A stretch of 38,376 nt of DNA from a candidate division WOR-3 bacterium (lineage in GTDB: Bacteria > Hydrothermota > Tepidihabitantia > Tepidihabitantales > Tepidihabitantaceae). Position 1 is the first letter of the stretch. Each line of letters begins with the position of its first letter. Location: contig JBDRUN010000012.1 in assembly GCA_039801365.1 (NCBI GenBank), positions 1 to 38,376 on the forward strand, read 5' to 3'. Below are positions 4,136 to 35,531 of the stretch, one piece after another. The translations under genes were made by a program, and so were the position numbers. The notes under the pieces were generated by a model that saw nothing but the letters and a program-made list of their open reading frames with translations, had not been told where the DNA came from and searched no databases.

Positions 4136-7057
4136 ATGAGCAGATTGACCAATTTCCGATACCTGCCGGCCAGGCTACTGGTTCTAGTTCTGGTCATTGT
4201 CGGAACGGTTCTTGCCGGCAATACCGGTGTGCTCGTCGGCCGGGTCGTGGACAAGAAGACCGGTGAGCCGCTGGCATTCGCCAACGTCGTCATCGAGAAG
4301 ACCGAACTCGGCGCGGCCACGGACGCGAACGGCCGATATGAGATAATCAATATCCCGCCTGGCCGTTATACGGTGACTGCTTCGTACGTGCGGTACAATC
4401 CGATGTCGGTAACTGACGTGCTCATTGTGCAGGACCAGACCGTGACGGTGGACTTCCGTCTGTCCGAGACGGTGGTTGAGATTGGCCGGGTGGTCGAGGT
4501 TACGGCCAAGAAGGTAGAGCTTGTCAACCCGACCACGGTTTCGGTCGAGCGAATCATTACCGACGAGGAGTTCAAGCGTTTGCCGGTAACACAGCTGACC
4601 GAGCTGGTCGGCATGCAGGCCGGCGTGACTCAGACTCAGAGCCGTGGCTGGACCCATATCCGCGGGGGGCGGTTCGATGACGTATCGTACCTGGTGGATG
4701 GGGTCGCAGCCCAAGACCAGGTCTATGGTACGCTGTGGTCCAGCCCGAAGCCGACAACCGATGCCATCCAGTCGGTAGTTGTAATCACTGGCGGATTTGA
4801 CGCCGAGTATGGCGAGGCGATGTCCGGAGTCATCAAGGCGGTGACCAAGGAAGGCGGACAGAAGACGTCGGGCCGGTTCCGGTACGCAACCGACGAGGTC
4901 TTTCCAAAGCCCGATCTAAACTTTGGATACAACCGTCTGAGCTTCAGTCTCGGTGGTCCGACACCGTTTTGGAACCGACTGCGCTACTTCCTCTCGACCG
5001 AGTACTTCAAGACTGATGACGACCGCGGCTGTCGGTACCACGTGGATGCACCGCGCGGCGAGTACGCACTCGAGGGAAAGGTGACGTTGGCGATGCCCAA
5101 GTCTTTCTTCCTGACTAAGGAAGGACTTAAGCTTACGCTTGATGGGCATCACTCGAATTATCAGTGGCGAACCTACTCGCATACCTACCGGTTCTGGCTT
5201 AGAGGGCTGTATGCGAACCGGGTACGTTCTTACAAGGGTAACTTGACTCTGAACCACATGTTGAGTCCGACCACGGTGTATGAGGCCAAGTTCGGTATGT
5301 TCATGACTTCGCTCATGCGTTCAGTACGCAACTTTTACGCCGAGGCCGCGGACACGACTGGATTCTGGGGTTCGATGCGTAAACTGGGTATCTGGGACCG
5401 GTTCTTCTTCCGGGGTGAAGACTGGGTGTTTGACTGGAAGAAGTACCGTGACTACGAGCTTGCGCATCCGGAATTGTTTGATACGACGAAGACGCCAAAG
5501 GATCAGCGGGATGCAGTGGTGAAGCTGTTCCGCTCGTACTGGTTGGCCAAGACTGCTGGTGGTGCGGACACGATGGTATATGCTCACCCGGGCGAACACA
5601 ATTTCGTTACCGGCTACGCGCTGATTGACTACCCGTACGGCGTTGCCGGGTTGTTTATCACCGAGGGCGACGACCGGTCGTGGCACTACCGGGCGACCAA
5701 CGACTACTTCGGCAAGTTTGACTTCACCAGGACAGTGAACAAGGTGCACGAGGTCAAGGCCGGGGTCTCGGTTACTCAATACGTCATCTCGGTGTATGAG
5801 AACTCCCTGCCCTGGGACCCGAACCCGTTCTGGGATGCGTTCAGCTACAAGCCGGTGGTGGCAGCGGCGTACGTCCAGGACAAGGCCGATTTCGAGGACC
5901 TCGTAGTTCGGGCCGGGCTGAGGTTTGATTACCTCGACTCCAAGGCTAGGGTCAGGGCCTATCCTGAGAGCCTGGGTGCACGGCCAGAGATTGCCGATAG
6001 TATGCTGCCAGTTCCGGCCAAGTACCGGCTGTCCCCGCGGCTCGGACTTTCCTATCCGATTACGGAAAGAATAAAGTTCCGGTTCTCGTACGGCCACTTC
6101 TTCAAGAACCCGACCTTCAGCAATCTCTACACTTACGCGGACAAGAGTGCGGCTGAACTTCGCGGCCGGGGCAACATCGTTGTCGGCAACGCGGATATGG
6201 GTGCGGAGAAGACTATCGCCTATGAGCTTGGCTTCGATGCACAGCTCTCCGACATATTCCAGTTCGACATCACCGCGTTCTACAAAGACGTGTATGACCT
6301 GTCCGGCATCAGGGTGGTACAGGCTCTGCCCCAGCCGTATTCGATGTTCTATAACGTCGAGTATGCCCGGATTCAGGGGTTTGAGGCAACGATGAACAAG
6401 GTACTTTCTGACTACTGGTCAGCACGACTTGGATACACGTTCACGATTGCCAAGGGTACGGCTTCAGACGCGTGGACTCAGTATGGCCGCTCCGACCCGT
6501 ACAAGATTGACTACTATCTGGACCAGGACCAGCGTCACGCGCTGCACGGTGATCTCGGGTTCTCTTTCCCGAGCGATTTTGCCTTTGTGCCGCTGCGGGA
6601 CTTTGACGTCTCAGGCGTCGTAGCCTACGGTTCGGGTACACCCTACACGCCGACCGACATCCGCGGTAACCCTACCGGCCCGGAGAACTCAGCCCGGTTG
6701 CCTGGAACGCTCAATGTTGATGCCCGGGCCTCAAAGGACTTGAGGCTCGGTGGGATGACGTTCTCCCTGTCCTGCGATGTCACTAATGTGGTGAACGCAA
6801 CCCAGATTGTCAACGTGCACACGGCAACCGGCAAGCCGGACTTCACCGGCAGGATTATTACCAGGTACGAGTTCGGGTCCGGGATTGCGTTCGGCGATTT
6901 CTACTACCATCCGTATCGCGACTACAACCACGATGGCTACATGAGCCAGTTCGAACAGTACGATTCCTACGTGCGCGCGTACCAGGACAAGAATGACCCG
7001 CCGACCTATTACGGGCCGCCGCGGAAGATAAGGTTTGGACTCAGCTTGTCGTTCTAA
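4136..7057 (+). CDS. TonB-dependent outer-membrane receptor with carboxypeptidase-regulatory-like domain
   Basis: The 973-residue protein has a signal peptide (hydrophobic core about residues 12-27). Residues ~30-115 form a CarboxypepD_reg-like fold (GRVVDKKTGEPLAFANVVIE ... YEIINIPPGRYTV). Residues ~140-240 are the plug, including LVDGVAAQDQVYG and GGFDAEYGEAMSGVIKAVTK. The rest is a long aromatic-rich beta-barrel ending in LSLSF with the terminal Phe typical of outer-membrane barrels. A small Asp-rich EF-hand-like stretch (DYNHDGYMSQFEQ) sits just before the last strands. Such receptors import large or scarce substrates using TonB energy; the ligand cannot be told from sequence. AGGAGG precedes the ATG. 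It lies between a lipoprotein gene and a large secreted protein gene, 19 bases from the latter's start. Confidence 0.93.
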   Translation: MSRLTNFRYLPARLLVLVLVIVGTVLAGNTGVLVGRVVDKKTGEPLAFANVVIEKTELGAATDANGRYEIINIPPGRYTVTASYVRYNPMSVTDVLIVQDQTVTVDFRLSETVVEIGRVVEVTAKKVELVNPTTVSVERIITDEEFKRLPVTQLTELVGMQAGVTQTQSRGWTHIRGGRFDDVSYLVDGVAAQDQVYGTLWSSPKPTTDAIQSVVVITGGFDAEYGEAMSGVIKAVTKEGGQKTSGRFRYATDEVFPKPDLNFGYNRLSFSLGGPTPFWNRLRYFLSTEYFKTDDDRGCRYHVDAPRGEYALEGKVTLAMPKSFFLTKEGLKLTLDGHHSNYQWRTYSHTYRFWLRGLYANRVRSYKGNLTLNHMLSPTTVYEAKFGMFMTSLMRSVRNFYAEAADTTGFWGSMRKLGIWDRFFFRGEDWVFDWKKYRDYELAHPELFDTTKTPKDQRDAVVKLFRSYWLAKTAGGADTMVYAHPGEHNFVTGYALIDYPYGVAGLFITEGDDRSWHYRATNDYFGKFDFTRTVNKVHEVKAGVSVTQYVISVYENSLPWDPNPFWDAFSYKPVVAAAYVQDKADFEDLVVRAGLRFDYLDSKARVRAYPESLGARPEIADSMLPVPAKYRLSPRLGLSYPITERIKFRFSYGHFFKNPTFSNLYTYADKSAAELRGRGNIVVGNADMGAEKTIAYELGFDAQLSDIFQFDITAFYKDVYDLSGIRVVQALPQPYSMFYNVEYARIQGFEATMNKVLSDYWSARLGYTFTIAKGTASDAWTQYGRSDPYKIDYYLDQDQRHALHGDLGFSFPSDFAFVPLRDFDVSGVVAYGSGTPYTPTDIRGNPTGPENSARLPGTLNVDARASKDLRLGGMTFSLSCDVTNVVNATQIVNVHTATGKPDFTGRIITRYEFGSGIAFGDFYYHPYRDYNHDGYMSQFEQYDSYVRAYQDKNDPPTYYGPPRKIRFGLSLSF

Positions 7058-7076
7058 GAAGGGGCAGGTGAGAAAA

Positions 7077-10001
7077 ATGACCAAAGACCAATTCCCAATG
7101 ACTAGACGCGGCGTGGCGGTTCTCCTACTGCTTGTCGCGCTCATGCTGGCATGGGCCAGGACAGCCACTCCGCTGCCGGCCGGCAAGCGGGTGTATGACA
7201 TGAAGTGGTTGAACATCAACAAGTGGCTGTGCCCGTTCTACAACGACGGCCGCTACGGCATAGATGTAACCATCGGTTCAGGCGAAGCCGGCGGTAGTTG
7301 GCCTCAGCCGTTCAAGAATAAGTACATCTTTGGCGCCGGGCTGTGGTTCGGCAGCCTGAAGCCGCGGGCAGACGGCAAGGTAGATACGCTCGTGACTTTC
7401 GGTTACAACCCGAACTCAGGCGGTACCGAGATGACACCGACTTCGGCGGCATATGCCGAGGCGGGTGCGGGTGATCCCCTGGACCGCATTTACATGTTCC
7501 CGAACGACTGGCCGCCGCCGCGGTCGCGGTACACCGCCAAGGGCTGGCGACTGGGTGCGACGATTCACGATACCGTTGATGTCGAGCTCGTGCCCAAGGA
7601 GAACTTTTCGCTCCAGGATATGTGGTGCGTGTACTGCGACCTGGGGAAAGACAATCATATCGCACCGGGCTATCCTCAGGGAGTAGAGTTCTACCAGACG
7701 GTATATGCCTGGAACTACCCGTCGAACCAGGACATATTCTTCATCATCTACAAAGTCCGAAATGCCAGCTCGGATACGCTGAAGAACTGCTACATGGGTG
7801 CGGTCAACGATCCCGACATTGGTGAACACTCCGACGATATGGTTGGGCTGCTTCTGAATACGCTGGTGCCGGGCGTGCCGGATACGGTGAGGAATGTCGG
7901 TTACGCAGGCGACTACGATAACCACGAGCAGCAGAACGCGCGCGGCCAGTGGGACCGGGGAACACCCGGAGTGTTTGCCTACAAGTTCCTCGAAAGCCCG
8001 CTGACGCTCGGAAACAACGACTCAACCAGACCGCTCGGCATGACGGCATTCAAGAAGTTCACGATTGACATTGACCCGGTCACCGACCAAGCCCAGTATC
8101 TGACGATGGCCGGCTACGATTACCGGACCGGAGTCCGGTCACCGTATGACTCGGTTGACGTCGCAGCCGCAGACAAGCGGTTCATCCAGTGCTCGGGCCC
8201 GTTCAATCTGGCGCCAGGCCAGGTCGAGGTGCTGATTGTTGCGGGAATCGCCGCGCCATACGGCGGTGAGGGGCAGCCATGGGAGAGCCGGGGACTGGAT
8301 TCGCTGGTGCACCTCGGGACCGTGGCGAACAACGCCCAGTTCATTTACGACCAGGGCTGGCTTCTGCCCGGGCCACCGGCGTCGCCTAACATCACGCTCG
8401 TACCGGGCGACAACAAGGTGCGGATTGTGTGGGACAACCTGCCTGAGGTCACGCCGGACCCGTACTGGGAGAAGGTTGCCTCAAAACCGTGGCCCAGTCC
8501 GGGTTCGGACCCGAAGTACCGAGGCTACGACTTCCAGGGCTATATCGTGTACAAGTCCTCAAACGGCTCAGACTGGGGCATACTGGCTCAATGTGACCTG
8601 GCTGATTCCATCATGTTCAGTTACCCGCCATCGGGTGACTCAACCATAGCCGAGAGTCTTTGGTTCAAAGCTACTGACAAGGGCATATTCTACTCAGTTG
8701 AGGACAAGAACGTCATCAACGGTTTCACCTACTACTACTGTGTCACGGCCTATGACTGGAACTACGTGACGACCGAGTGGGATACGACTCAGACTCCGCC
8801 GGTACCGGTCGCGTGGGATACCCTTATCCTGCGTTCGGGGATTGTGGCGAACTACTCGACGGTTCCGCGTTGGGACGCGGCGAACTATGAGGAACCGACG
8901 ACCCGGGTTGTAACGGTTGCAGGTAACCCGGATACGCTGACCCGCGGACTAAAACTGACAAGCAGCGTGGTGGTGCCGTACAATGTCAAGGCTGATACCT
9001 ACGAGGTCCGGTTCCTTGGGCCGACGTACCTGGCAGCGTCCAAGTCCCGTTGCCGTTATGTAGTTACGAACCTGACGACCGATAGTATCATCGTGGATAC
9101 GACCGGCTTCGACTACACAGTAGGTTCGACCGTGTCCTTTTCATTGCCGGTTTTCAATGGCCAGGAAAGCAAGATCAAACTGAGCTACGCAACTCCGACT
9201 AAGCCATACGATACTGCTTATGTCGAGAGCGGCAACTACCCGACTGAAAGGGTTCGGCCTACCCGGGTTACATCGGGTGAGCAGCGGGCGGTTTGGTGCT
9301 TCCGAGGTTCGGATTACAAGGTTGAGTGGAAGAATGCAGGCGGGCAGCTGACCGCGAAAGTGTACGATTTGACTAACGGCAGTATCGAGGTGCCTTCGAC
9401 AAGATATGACGGTGCGCAGGGTCAGAACGCGAATGGTTGGTGCTTTGTGGACCGGGTGGCACGCAAACCGAATGACACGCTCTGGACTGGTGCGGCCCTG
9501 CTATACATCTGCGGTGGGTACGTGGCGATGAACTATACCGGCACGAATGAGACCTTGGGTGCGATGATAAACCAGATAAACGACGGGGATGTATGGATGG
9601 TTGTCGGCCACAAGAACGAGAAGACCGCGGCTCACTACAACGTGTACAACATCGTCTCGACACCCGGTAAGGAAGGAACCGAACCGCTGGATTCACTTGT
9701 GGTCAAAGTCGTGCCCAATCCGTATATCGTGTTCAATGCTTGGGAGACGAACTCGGAGAATCGGAGGGTAAAGTTCACCCACCTGCCGATGACCTGCACG
9801 ATCCGCATCTTCACCTTGTCCGGTGACTTGGTCAAGGTGCTGGAGCACAAGGACGACGGTAAGCATCCGCTTGATGAGGGCGGCACTGAGACATGGGACT
9901 TGCTGAACGACAACGCTCAGCTGGTTGCGTCCGGGGTCTATGTCTTTCACGTCGAGTCCGAAGCCGGGCAGTATACCGGCAAATTCGTGCTCATTCACTA
10001 A
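7077..10001 (+). CDS. Large secreted surface protein with Fn3-like segment and FlgD-like C-terminal domain
   Basis: I chose the ATG at 7077 because it follows a GGCAGGTGAG ribosome site and leads directly into a signal peptide (core about residues 12-26). An upstream in-frame ATG at 7035 would overlap the receptor gene. The 974-residue product belongs to no family I can name. Its body is rich in Trp, Tyr, Asp and Gly like beta-sandwich surface proteins. A fibronectin-III-like stretch begins near residue 440 (PPASPNITLVPGDNKVRIVW). The last ~95 residues are FlgD-like (VPNPYIVFNAW, IRIFTLSGDLVKVL, ASGVYVFHVES, GKFVLIH), a tail common on exported proteins of FCB-type bacteria. It is the third gene of the surface operon, 11 bases before the PorV-like gene. 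A ligand-binding or surface-layer role is plausible but unproven. Confidence 0.85.
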   Translation: MTKDQFPMTRRGVAVLLLLVALMLAWARTATPLPAGKRVYDMKWLNINKWLCPFYNDGRYGIDVTIGSGEAGGSWPQPFKNKYIFGAGLWFGSLKPRADGKVDTLVTFGYNPNSGGTEMTPTSAAYAEAGAGDPLDRIYMFPNDWPPPRSRYTAKGWRLGATIHDTVDVELVPKENFSLQDMWCVYCDLGKDNHIAPGYPQGVEFYQTVYAWNYPSNQDIFFIIYKVRNASSDTLKNCYMGAVNDPDIGEHSDDMVGLLLNTLVPGVPDTVRNVGYAGDYDNHEQQNARGQWDRGTPGVFAYKFLESPLTLGNNDSTRPLGMTAFKKFTIDIDPVTDQAQYLTMAGYDYRTGVRSPYDSVDVAAADKRFIQCSGPFNLAPGQVEVLIVAGIAAPYGGEGQPWESRGLDSLVHLGTVANNAQFIYDQGWLLPGPPASPNITLVPGDNKVRIVWDNLPEVTPDPYWEKVASKPWPSPGSDPKYRGYDFQGYIVYKSSNGSDWGILAQCDLADSIMFSYPPSGDSTIAESLWFKATDKGIFYSVEDKNVINGFTYYYCVTAYDWNYVTTEWDTTQTPPVPVAWDTLILRSGIVANYSTVPRWDAANYEEPTTRVVTVAGNPDTLTRGLKLTSSVVVPYNVKADTYEVRFLGPTYLAASKSRCRYVVTNLTTDSIIVDTTGFDYTVGSTVSFSLPVFNGQESKIKLSYATPTKPYDTAYVESGNYPTERVRPTRVTSGEQRAVWCFRGSDYKVEWKNAGGQLTAKVYDLTNGSIEVPSTRYDGAQGQNANGWCFVDRVARKPNDTLWTGAALLYICGGYVAMNYTGTNETLGAMINQINDGDVWMVVGHKNEKTAAHYNVYNIVSTPGKEGTEPLDSLVVKVVPNPYIVFNAWETNSENRRVKFTHLPMTCTIRIFTLSGDLVKVLEHKDDGKHPLDEGGTETWDLLNDNAQLVASGVYVFHVESEAGQYTGKFVLIH

Positions 10002-10012
10002 GGGAGGACGAG

Positions 10013-11083
10013 ATGACAAGAATGACCAATACCCAACGCCCAATGACCAAGAAGATACTGGCGGTCGCTTTCGCGTGGCTCCTGGTCGCCTCGGTCGGTT
10101 TGGCCGCGTTCTCCAAGGTCGGTACGACCGGCGCGGCGTTCCTGAAAATCGGCGTCGGGCGGGCGACTGCGATGGGCGAGGCATTCACGGCAATTGCCGA
10201 CGATGCTTCGGCCTGCTACTTCAATCCGGCCGGGCTGGCCCATGTTGGACGGCAGGTCCAGTTCAACCACGTTGACTGGATTGCCGACATCAATCACGAC
10301 CACTTGGCCGTGGTGCTGCCGATGACCAGTTTCGGTACGATGACTTTCGCGATCACGGCGCTGACGATGGGCGACATCGAGCAGACGACAATCGACAATC
10401 CAGGTACCAAGGCGCGAGAGGACGAAGGCACCGGGCTGTTCTTCGGCGCAGCGGATTTCTGCGTGGCAGCTACCTATTCCCGGGTTATTACCGACAAGCT
10501 TTCCTTTGGCTTCACGGCCAAGGGCGTGCAGCAGTCGATCTGGGACATGGCGGCAAGTGCGCTCGGAGTTGACCTGGGGCTTTTCTACAACACCGGGTTC
10601 CGGTCGCTCAGAATCGGTGCAACAGTAGCGAACTTCGGCACCCAGCTTGCCTTTTCTGGACGTCAGCTTCAGTATGGTATTACCTGGCCTGACTCCGGGC
10701 CGCCGTCGCTGCCGGGGACTTATCGCACCGACGCAATGCCGCTGCCGACCACGTTCCGCTTCGGCATCGCCTACGACCTGGTTGATGTGAGCCCGAGTAA
10801 GTTGACCGCGGCGATTGACCTGACCCATCCGTCGGACATCAATGAGACGGTGAACATCGGCTTAGAGTACGGCTACAACGAGCTGTTTGCGCTGCGCGGC
10901 GGGTATATTCTGAACGTTGATCGGGAATACGCGAAGAATGTCGGTGAGCTTTCCGGGCTCACAGCCGGGCTTGGAGTCAGGACCGAGCCGGCCAAAGGTT
11001 TGAAGCTCGGCCTGGACTACACGTTCCGCTACCTCAAGTATCTAAAGCCAACGCACCGTGTCCAGTTGACCGTGGGCTTCTAA
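10013..11083 (+). CDS. PorV/PorQ-family outer-membrane barrel protein
   Basis: The ATG at 10013 has AGGGAGG nine bases upstream and opens a signal peptide (core about residues 15-32). The start of the mature protein has the PorV/PorQ signature: GVGRATAMGEAFTAIADD followed by ACYFNPAGLA (about residues 47-76). The remaining ~280 residues alternate as a FadL/OmpP1-like beta-barrel and end in VQLTVGF with a terminal Phe. The 356-residue length fits the family. PorV proteins act in type IX secretion as outer-membrane shuttles for sorting-domain cargo. At least five proteins in this window carry cargo-like C-termini, which fits that role. It is the last gene of the surface operon and is followed by an intrinsic terminator. 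Confidence 0.9.
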   Translation: MTRMTNTQRPMTKKILAVAFAWLLVASVGLAAFSKVGTTGAAFLKIGVGRATAMGEAFTAIADDASACYFNPAGLAHVGRQVQFNHVDWIADINHDHLAVVLPMTSFGTMTFAITALTMGDIEQTTIDNPGTKAREDEGTGLFFGAADFCVAATYSRVITDKLSFGFTAKGVQQSIWDMAASALGVDLGLFYNTGFRSLRIGATVANFGTQLAFSGRQLQYGITWPDSGPPSLPGTYRTDAMPLPTTFRFGIAYDLVDVSPSKLTAAIDLTHPSDINETVNIGLEYGYNELFALRGGYILNVDREYAKNVGELSGLTAGLGVRTEPAKGLKLGLDYTFRYLKYLKPTHRVQLTVGF

Positions 11084-28518: not shown

Positions 28519-30192
28519 CTAGTGTCGCCCGGCCGCATCGGCCAGGAGCGCGAACTCGTCCTTCAGTTTCGGGTACAGCGCACGGTAGCGCTGGTAGTAG
28601 TCGTCGTAGGCTTTTCGGTCCGGCCCTGGCTTCGTACTGCCTGTCTCCCGTATGGTGCGGGCGCAGGCTTCCTGAGCAGAGGCATAGGTGTCCGTACCCA
28701 CGCCGGCGAGCAGGGCCGCGCCAAATGCAGCGCCTTGTGTGATGTTCACGGTCACCACTTCTGCGTTGAAGACATCGGCCATTACCTGACGCCAGAACGC
28801 GGAGCGGGAACCGCCGCCTGATACGCGTATGCGGCCGCAGGCCAGATTGTGTTCGCACAGTAGTTCCAGGCAGTCGCGCAGGCTGAAGGTAACTCCTTCA
28901 ATCACGGCCCGTGTCAGGTGGGGCAGGGAGTGGCGCAGAGACAGGCCGAAGAACACGCCGCGGGCATTCGGGTCTGGATGCGGGCAGCGTTCGCCGGAAA
29001 GATAGGGCAGGAAGAGCAGGCCTTCACTGCCGGCCGGGATTCGTGACGCTTCTGCCGTCATCAGGTCATACAGGTCCGGGCCGGATTGCCCATCAGTAGA
29101 TTTCGCAGATTTCACAGATTCGTGTTCGGTTGTCGAACACCCCCTTCCTTCCATTCCCTCCCCCTTCAAGGGGGAGGGAGAGGGTGAGGGTGCGGCAATC
29201 TGCGTAATCTCTGGATGCAGTTCTGTTCTTCGCCAGAGCGTATCCCGCAGCCAGCGCAGGCTGCCTCCGGCAGAGAGTGTCACGCCCATCAGATGCCATC
29301 GGCCCGGTGCCGCGTGGCAGTAGGCGTGCATTCTGCCAGTCTTATCCGGCCGGTAGTCGTTTGTGGCGGCGAATACCACTCCTGAAGTGCCGATGGTAAC
29401 AGAGACAACGCCCTCATCTACGATGCCAGTGCCGACGGACTGGGTGGCCTGGTCGCCCGCGCCGACGACCACGGGTGTGCCAGAAAGCAGTCCGGTTTCT
29501 TCTGCGGCCTGCGCAGTGATGCGGCCGACAACTTCGTGGCACTCGTGTACTTTCGGCAGCCAGTCCAAGGGTATGTCCAGCAGACCGACTACTTCTTCCG
29601 ACCAGGCGCGCCTGCCGGTGTCGAGCAGGTTCGTGCCTGACGCGTCGGCCACGTCAATCGCATACTCGCCGGTGAGACGCAGTCGGACGTAATCCTTTGG
29701 CAGTTGGATGTGCCGCGCCCGGGCATAGACGTCAGGTTCGTTCTCGCGCACCCACAGAATCTTGCCCGCGGTGAAGCCGGTCAGGGCAGGTTTGCCGGTG
29801 ATTGTGATGATGCGGTCCAAGCCAACCCGGCGGTTGATGTCCTCGCACTGCTTGGCCGTGCGCTGGTCGTTCCACATTATGCAGGGCCGCAGTACCTTGT
29901 CCTTCTCGTCCAGCAGAACCAGCCCGTGCATCTGGCCTGTCAGGCCGATGCCCGCGATGTCCTGCGGCTTGAACTTGGACGAAGATAAGACTTGTCGGAC
30001 GCTTCGGACAGCCGCCTGCCACCAGTCCGCCGGATCCTGCTCGGCCCAGCCGGGCCGTAGTGTTGCCATCGGGTACTCGGTCGTGTGTTCGGCGAGCACG
30101 TCGCCTGGGCTGTCTATCAGCACCGCTTTGGCACCGGTGGTGCCGATGTCAATGCCGAGGAGAAGAGGCTTCACGCTACACGCCCCATACAC
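28519..30192 (-). CDS. xylB: Xylulokinase-like FGGY sugar kinase with an in-frame repeat insertion
   Basis: The protein is 557 residues, longer than the usual ~490-515 of XylB. FGGY landmarks are LLGIDIGTTGAKAVLID at the N-terminus, GLTGQMHGLVLLD, CIMWNDQRT, VVVGAGDQATQSVGTG with catalytic Asp, LPYLSGERCPHPDPNARGVFFGL and IRVSGGGSRSAFWRQVMADV. These fit D-xylulose 5-phosphorylation by ATP, though other pentulose kinases are similar. About residues 330-369 form a foreign-looking insert (SPSPLKGEGMEGRG then STTEHESVKSAKST) at a surface position between LRWLRDTLW and YDLMTAEA. ATG at 30192 is taken as start; GTG at 30174, nearer the domain, is possible. The GH5 gene follows immediately. Confidence 0.88.
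   Translation of the reverse strand: MYGACSVKPLLLGIDIGTTGAKAVLIDSPGDVLAEHTTEYPMATLRPGWAEQDPADWWQAAVRSVRQVLSSSKFKPQDIAGIGLTGQMHGLVLLDEKDKVLRPCIMWNDQRTAKQCEDINRRVGLDRIITITGKPALTGFTAGKILWVRENEPDVYARARHIQLPKDYVRLRLTGEYAIDVADASGTNLLDTGRRAWSEEVVGLLDIPLDWLPKVHECHEVVGRITAQAAEETGLLSGTPVVVGAGDQATQSVGTGIVDEGVVSVTIGTSGVVFAATNDYRPDKTGRMHAYCHAAPGRWHLMGVTLSAGGSLRWLRDTLWRRTELHPEITQIAAPSPSPSPLKGEGMEGRGCSTTEHESVKSAKSTDGQSGPDLYDLMTAEASRIPAGSEGLLFLPYLSGERCPHPDPNARGVFFGLSLRHSLPHLTRAVIEGVTFSLRDCLELLCEHNLACGRIRVSGGGSRSAFWRQVMADVFNAEVVTVNITQGAAFGAALLAGVGTDTYASAQEACARTIRETGSTKPGPDRKAYDDYYQRYRALYPKLKDEFALLADAAGRH
29085..29200 (-). repeat. Composite repeat inserted in the xylulokinase coding frame
   Basis: Two repeat-like parts are joined. 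One is a 25-base palindrome (29155-29179, arms TCCCTCCCCCTT with one central base). The other is a CTGTGAAATCTGCGAAATCT tract (about 29099-29118, minus strand). Together they encode ~38 extra residues without breaking the frame. Confidence 0.7.
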
Positions 30193-35380: not shown

Positions 35381-35404
35381 ACACAATACGTCGAGGAGTC
35401 AAGT

Positions 35405-35531
35405 GGCCAGTTTCCAATTCCCAATGACCGGGCAAGGCTCGGTGTCGACACTGCTTGGATGCCGGAAGAGTATGTGCGTCGGTTGGGCGACCAAGACTGT
35501 ATCGGTAGTAATTGAGAGATGGAAGCTGGCC
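35405..35531. repeat. Element with 24-base imperfect inverted ends upstream of efp
   Basis: The left end (35405-35428) and the complement of the right end (35508-35531) match at 19 of 24 positions. The left end includes CCAATTCCCAATGAC, which also occurs exactly at 7088-7102. The transcript could form a long-range stem just before efp; a TTTTTT run at 35541-35546 lies ten bases after the right arm. Confidence 0.6.

Follow-up and report, generated by a model that had tools for sequence, protein, structure and literature searches.

A composite palindromic repeat inserted in frame in a xylulokinase gene of a candidate division WOR-3 bacterium, with intragenic copies across its bacterial family

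The window, the whole stretch of 38,376 nt that was analysed, is the entire contig C12 of a 2.5-Mb draft genome in 124 contigs, termed here the source genome (G000). It carries a gene for a xylulokinase (XylB) of the FGGY family (Table 1), the product of which has 557 residues; a GTG at position 30174 is a possible alternative start codon. The closest named XylB records are those of candidate division WOR-3, and the host is not Rickettsia. Between the segments GGSLRW and LLFLPY the protein displays 83 residues, compared with 43 in all 30 XylBs sampled from WOR-3, Chloroflexi, Planctomycetota, Verrucomicrobia, Ignavibacteria, Armatimonadetes and other groups. In alignments, the block of ∼40 residues is absent from the XylB of nine out of nine relatives in the class, and the E. 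coli protein has a gap at the same place. XylBs of relatives in the same family are 68–72% identical to the window XylB over the N-terminal segment. The DNA of the block is a 120 bp insert whose ends were set by protein alignment, with an uncertainty of a few bases, and its reading frame is open from end to end. An earlier note on this DNA had proposed a palindromic repeat in frame inside xylulokinase, and the empty sites in the nine relatives and the 30 XylBs bear this out. The alignment with related XylBs that it recommended confirms the empty site, and the insert is not conserved in distant XylBs. The size of about 38 residues given there needs correction to 40, and the position of 29085–29200 was off by about 15 bases. 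A different in-frame insert, of ∼16 residues around GTGTVFLGGKPCQSLA, is found nearer the C-terminus in the XylB of genome G008 (locus L055).

Table 1. The xylB gene, the components of its insert, and other genes of the source genome with in-frame copies
Feature	Position or contig	Strand	Evidence and remarks
Gene for xylulokinase (XylB, FGGY family), with the insert	28519..30192	(-)	Pfam FGGY_N 5.6e-77, FGGY_C 5.6e-39; match to E. coli XylB 2itm, 3.6e-107; Foldseek 5vm1/2itm
Whole in-frame insert HPEITQIAAPSPSPSPLKGEGMEGRGCSTTEHESVKSAKS	29098..29217	(-)	120 bp/40 codons; protein alignment
Outer arm 1, AATCTGYG family, AATCTGCGTAATCTCTGGATG	29197..29217	(+)	Pairs with arm 2 in RNA and DNA folds
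REP-like core, 54-bp palindromic repeat CCCTCACCC...GGGAGGG	29139..29192	(-)	nhmmer 8e-17, the xylB copy itself being among the profile seeds
Perfect 25-nt palindrome inside the core	29155..29179		12-nt arms, 1-nt centre
Second small hairpin GTGTTCGACAACCGAACAC, between core and arm 2	29122..29140	(-)	Sequence and fold
Outer arm 2, AATCTGTGAAATCTGCGAAATCT, inverted relative to arm 1	29098..29120	(-)	Pairs in folds; further family members in this genome and in those of relatives
Peptide region SPSPLKGEGMEGR			Crosses the insert
PMT-like transferase with TPR repeats	C3		Two inserts, together holding three palindromes
HgdB-like protein	C7		Palindrome in frame
Kinase-PASTA-FGE protein	C16		Palindrome in frame
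Cas4	C96		Palindrome in frame

Read along the coding strand, the insert consists of the arm CATCCAGAGATTACGCAGATT, the core CACCCTCACCCTCTCCCTCCCCCTTGAAGGGGGAGGGAATGGAAGGAAGGGGG, the hairpin GTGTTCGACAACCGAACAC and the arm AATCTGTGAAATCTGCGAAATCT. The 25-base perfect palindrome described previously is present within the core. The repeat-like tract reported with it is also real and corresponds to an AATCTGYG tract at 29104–29120 (-), but its inverted partner at 29197–29213 (+) had been missed. There are three AATCTGYG sites compared with 0.22 expected in shuffles, and a region of 146 nt folds far better than dinucleotide shuffles, both as RNA (z = -6.4) and as DNA (z = -6.9). The AATCTGYG arms belong to a separate repeat family, members of which are also found alone or around other sequence, e.g. 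at C114:2297–2417 of the source genome and at C118:2765–2810 of genome G017. The core, hairpin and one arm are found together again at C29:2744–2839, with 88% identity over 95 bp, and in this copy the small hairpin is degenerate. Because the arms form a family of their own and core, hairpin and arm recur as a unit at C29, the insert is a composite, with one palindromic repeat situated within another. At a further locus of the source genome (L162, C114:2288–2420), AATCTGYG arms surround a different interior, TGTCATTCTGAGG...TTCAGGGTGAGG; this suggests that several repeats use these arms as a common frame. A search for Rfam families in the window found none, and a literature search with the core sequence listed papers on other subjects, apparently through matches to primers or other short oligonucleotides.

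At the protein level, an AlphaFold model of 551 aa, based on 31 aligned sequences, has a mean pLDDT of 88, and the modelled fold matches solved xylulokinases in Foldseek. The sole segment below pLDDT 50 comprises residues 324–363; these 40 residues lie between two helices, and their limits agree with those of the insert apart from a few residues. The structure modelling that had been proposed thus predicts the insert to be a disordered loop in an otherwise confident xylulokinase fold. All columns that are invariant over the 31-sequence alignment are retained in the window XylB, and the statement of the earlier note that frame and motifs survive holds. The dN/dS ratio relative to relatives is 0.08–0.24 on either side of the insert (dS being close to saturation), and purifying constraint acts on both halves of xylB. 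Constraint together with the predicted structure argue for a working kinase. The loop is probably neutral with respect to the predicted enzyme activity; the kinase could also be impaired. A single insertion has a chance of about 1/3 of retaining the frame, and xylB might on this account be a pseudogene, or its kinase inactivated by the insertion, with the frame kept by chance. This is very unlikely, however, as it is at odds with the retained invariant columns, with the low dN/dS on both sides, with the limitation of the insert to a disordered loop of the model, and with the similar behaviour of many other genes.

The source genome has about a dozen copies of the 54-bp core palindrome, so that the search for further genomic copies suggested at the outset had a positive result, and the palindrome is also present in most genera of the bacterium's family. 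The best partial copy of the core is 94% identical over 54 bp. In-frame intragenic copies in the source genome are those in XylB, the PMT-like transferase, the HgdB-like protein, the kinase-PASTA-FGE protein and Cas4; the others lie between genes or at the ends of genes. Empty sites are seen directly for HgdB and for the PMT-like transferase, which has two repeat-derived inserts, and Cas4 has an insert of ∼48 aa as opposed to an empty site in genome G030. Genome G002 has a copy, its own or shared, at the same HgdB linker. These filled and empty sites, along with the dispersion of the copies, point to transposition as the probable route of entry.

Several of these loci display additional sequence features. 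The PMT-like transferase gene (L157:1370–3493 (-), on C3) has a third extra segment, RVQGFQGSSAGPHPS, which is absent from relatives and has no visible link to the palindrome. In the HgdB gene (L160) a tract of the CGCTTCACGCTTTACGCTTCACG type adjoins the palindrome upstream and encodes FTLYASRFTP. In the CRISPR-cas region on C96 (L163), where Cas4 is assigned by Pfam, palindromes number at least three: the first is within the Cas4 gene, the second at the 3′ end of that gene and the third by the neighbouring gene.

A profile built from 23 seeds was run over loci retrieved from the genomes of the family and gave 73 distinct places, five of them in regions that were reached by protein search and not by DNA search. 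A copy was termed intragenic when a codon-usage model, derived from the genes of the window, showed both flanks to be coding and one open frame passed through the element. A census with 240-bp flanks was underpowered (eight intragenic copies found) and was replaced. Of the 73 copies, 24 are in frame inside coding genes, a count that the requirement for an open frame across the element makes one-sided. Among the remaining copies no frame-broken gene was seen by the codon-usage census, which has limited power to detect broken genes. Besides the genes named above, hosts identified by Pfam are asparaginase_2, GH106, POR, UvrC, DeoC, DUF1722, FG-GAP and Eco57I-type methylases. Different species share the site of an intragenic copy in asparaginase (G013 and G016), in DeoC (G003 and G008, the latter copy being below the strict cut-off) and in the FG-GAP family (G003 and G013). 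Thus several intragenic copies are old, as they occupy the same site across species. In the FG-GAP family, the palindrome is at one site in three G003 paralogues (L255, L256 and L257) and in G013 (L245); this copy is probably older than the paralogue duplications.

Repeats are often points of misassembly, and the draft to which the window contributes a single contig has 124 of them; an assembly or binning artefact is therefore conceivable. It is hardly credible, given that the insert is exactly 120 bp and in frame, that the same gene is on both flanks, and that equivalent insertions are present in separately assembled relatives.

The intragenic copies show an excess of the forward orientation, about 14:4 events as counted by hand. 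The elements have on average 2.30 open frames in the forward and 1.34 in the reverse direction, which gives an expected forward share of 0.63 (p = 0.23). Directional insertion into coding strands is not needed, as these open-frame numbers explain the excess. Adaptation of the elements to be stop-free was also considered and was rejected: 3.64 out of six frames are open, compared with 4.28 in genomic windows and 3.94–4.50 in shuffles. Since the elements are not unusually stop-free, insertions that are in frame and do no harm seem simply to survive, and passive filtering of in-frame insertions is enough to account for the intragenic copies.

These numbers bear on the suggestion in the earlier note of an active, ORF-tolerated repeat system. 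The high intragenic share, the presence of more than one copy in one gene (the PMT-like transferase, Cas4) and the recurrence of similar peptide frames in many genes might indicate an active system specialised for reading frames, with elements selected to be stop-free and a dedicated enzyme. This is nevertheless improbable, because the elements are not enriched in open frames, a RAYT-type transposase was not found in the source genome, the copies have diverged (to the 94% and 88% identities given above) and intragenic copies are common to species at one site; a fitting target-site duplication is also lacking at xylB. The term ORF-tolerated is apt; the term active is not supported.

The in-frame insertion of a palindromic repeat, passively tolerated, is very probably the best explanation overall. 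According to this explanation, a short palindromic repeat, i.e. a REP/MITE-like composite with an AATCTGYG inverted repeat around the core palindrome, would have entered xylB. The insertion may have survived because its length of 120 bp and its frame left the gene open and because the site is presumably a surface loop. The insert would then be translated as a disordered loop, with the kinase presumably still working. The process would be recurrent in the bacterial family, in-frame copies in loops and linkers being kept and others lost by selection.

Which enzyme may have mobilised the repeat was approached via the IS200/IS605-type transposases termed RAYTs. Genomes of the family with both the repeat and a Y1_Tnp gene number 10, those with neither six, and there is one with the RAYT only and one with the repeat only (Fisher p = 0.0025); the repeat-only genome is the source genome. 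Over 61 genomes the co-occurrence has p = 0.004. Both tests ignore shared ancestry and are based on draft genomes. RAYT-like proteins with the HxH motif are present in relatives, and two of 20 inspected RAYT genes of relatives (L224 and L235) have a palindrome-type copy within ∼600 bp. This is consistent with the palindrome being a canonical REP, moved by the IS200/IS605-like RAYTs of the family, the gene having been lost or left unassembled here. On the other hand, no GT(A/G)G head is seen by the palindrome when the 23-copy seed alignment is inspected by eye, and none of the 20 RAYT loci in relatives has the rayt gene between two inverted copies. Two related RAYTs have a different hairpin, GGGGCGGGC, downstream. 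In the source genome a Pfam profile search detected no RAYT-type transposase, nor did a search based on an alignment of the RAYTs of relatives, conducted without a positive control. At xylB there is no direct repeat of ≥4 bases at the 120-bp spacing that would represent a target-site duplication; an ACTG pair is found at a spacing of 124. Copy numbers are low, about a dozen in the source genome and up to at least 24 matches in relatives. The canonical RAYT/REP relationship is thus a possibility that falls short of an even chance. A RAYT acting in trans, and since lost from the source genome, would be the leading candidate for the mobiliser, tentative as this assignment is.

Rickettsia and some REP-rich bacteria provide the best-known cases of palindromic repeats in frame within protein genes. 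The Rickettsia palindromic elements (RPEs) and intragenic REPs have been described (PMC10969869; PMC3733652), with RPE sequences of R. conorii having a CGTC end tag and intragenic REPs falling into GTAG and CGTC super-families (PMC3733652). As with RPEs, the WOR-3 repeats are short palindromes found in frame in many unrelated genes, where they add a few dozen residues; host genes are conserved and there is no obvious transposase. Unlike RPEs, the 54-bp WOR-3 consensus does not show the CGTC tag (seed alignment of 23 copies inspected by eye, the tag being compared by description), the host is a WOR-3 bacterium, and the ∼54-bp core is enclosed by a second repeat family. The comparison with rickettsial elements drawn previously is valid at the level of function, in that in-frame copies occur in many genes, and carries no claim of kinship by sequence or descent. 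Intragenic REPs are similar in being palindromes, sometimes grouped, that reside in open reading frames including those of repair genes (UvrC here), and in having same-site copies in related species. They differ in their GTAG or CGTC tags, which the WOR-3 consensus lacks, and the WOR-3 repeat has a low copy number per genome; about one-third of its copies are intragenic, while the descriptions of REPs place most of them between genes.

RAYT-associated REPs and REPINs (PMC2817692; PMC3116915) are likewise non-autonomous, hairpin-forming imperfect palindromes, and the WOR-3 repeat co-occurs with Y1_Tnp across the family. It differs from them in having neither the GT(A/G)G head, nor a flanking inverted pair at RAYTs, nor a RAYT in the source genome, and in its copy number, RAYT-REPs usually exceeding 100 copies per genome. 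MITEs, for which in-frame fusions are known (PMC10969869), resemble the WOR-3 insert in having terminal inverted repeats, here the AATCTGYG arms at both ends, and no transposase gene of their own. Unlike MITEs, the insert lacks a target-site duplication, and a partner insertion sequence was not found. The WOR-3 repeat is not filed as an RPE or a RAYT-REP, since the CGTC and GTAG tags are lacking and the link to RAYTs fails the flanking test; it is a new family of intragenic palindromic repeats.

Intragenic palindromes are thus now found in an uncultured candidate phylum with genomes of 1.6–4.7 Mb. With empty sites for several hosts, they make up a natural collection that can be used to ask where proteins tolerate insertions and if inserted loops ever gain a function. 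Some intragenic copies (in DeoC, asparaginase, the FG-GAP family and HgdB) might have been kept because the loop is useful and not only harmless, which is rather unlikely; if true, WOR-3 palindromes would be a recurrent source of new peptide loops.

A second short repeat, similar to AATGACCAAAGACCAATTCCCAATGAC, is present in the window at 7070–7102, 10015–10047 and 35396–35428. At the first two of these places the repeat overlaps the start regions of the open reading frames at 7035–10001 and 9893–11083, and appears to supply the start codons and first residues of both.
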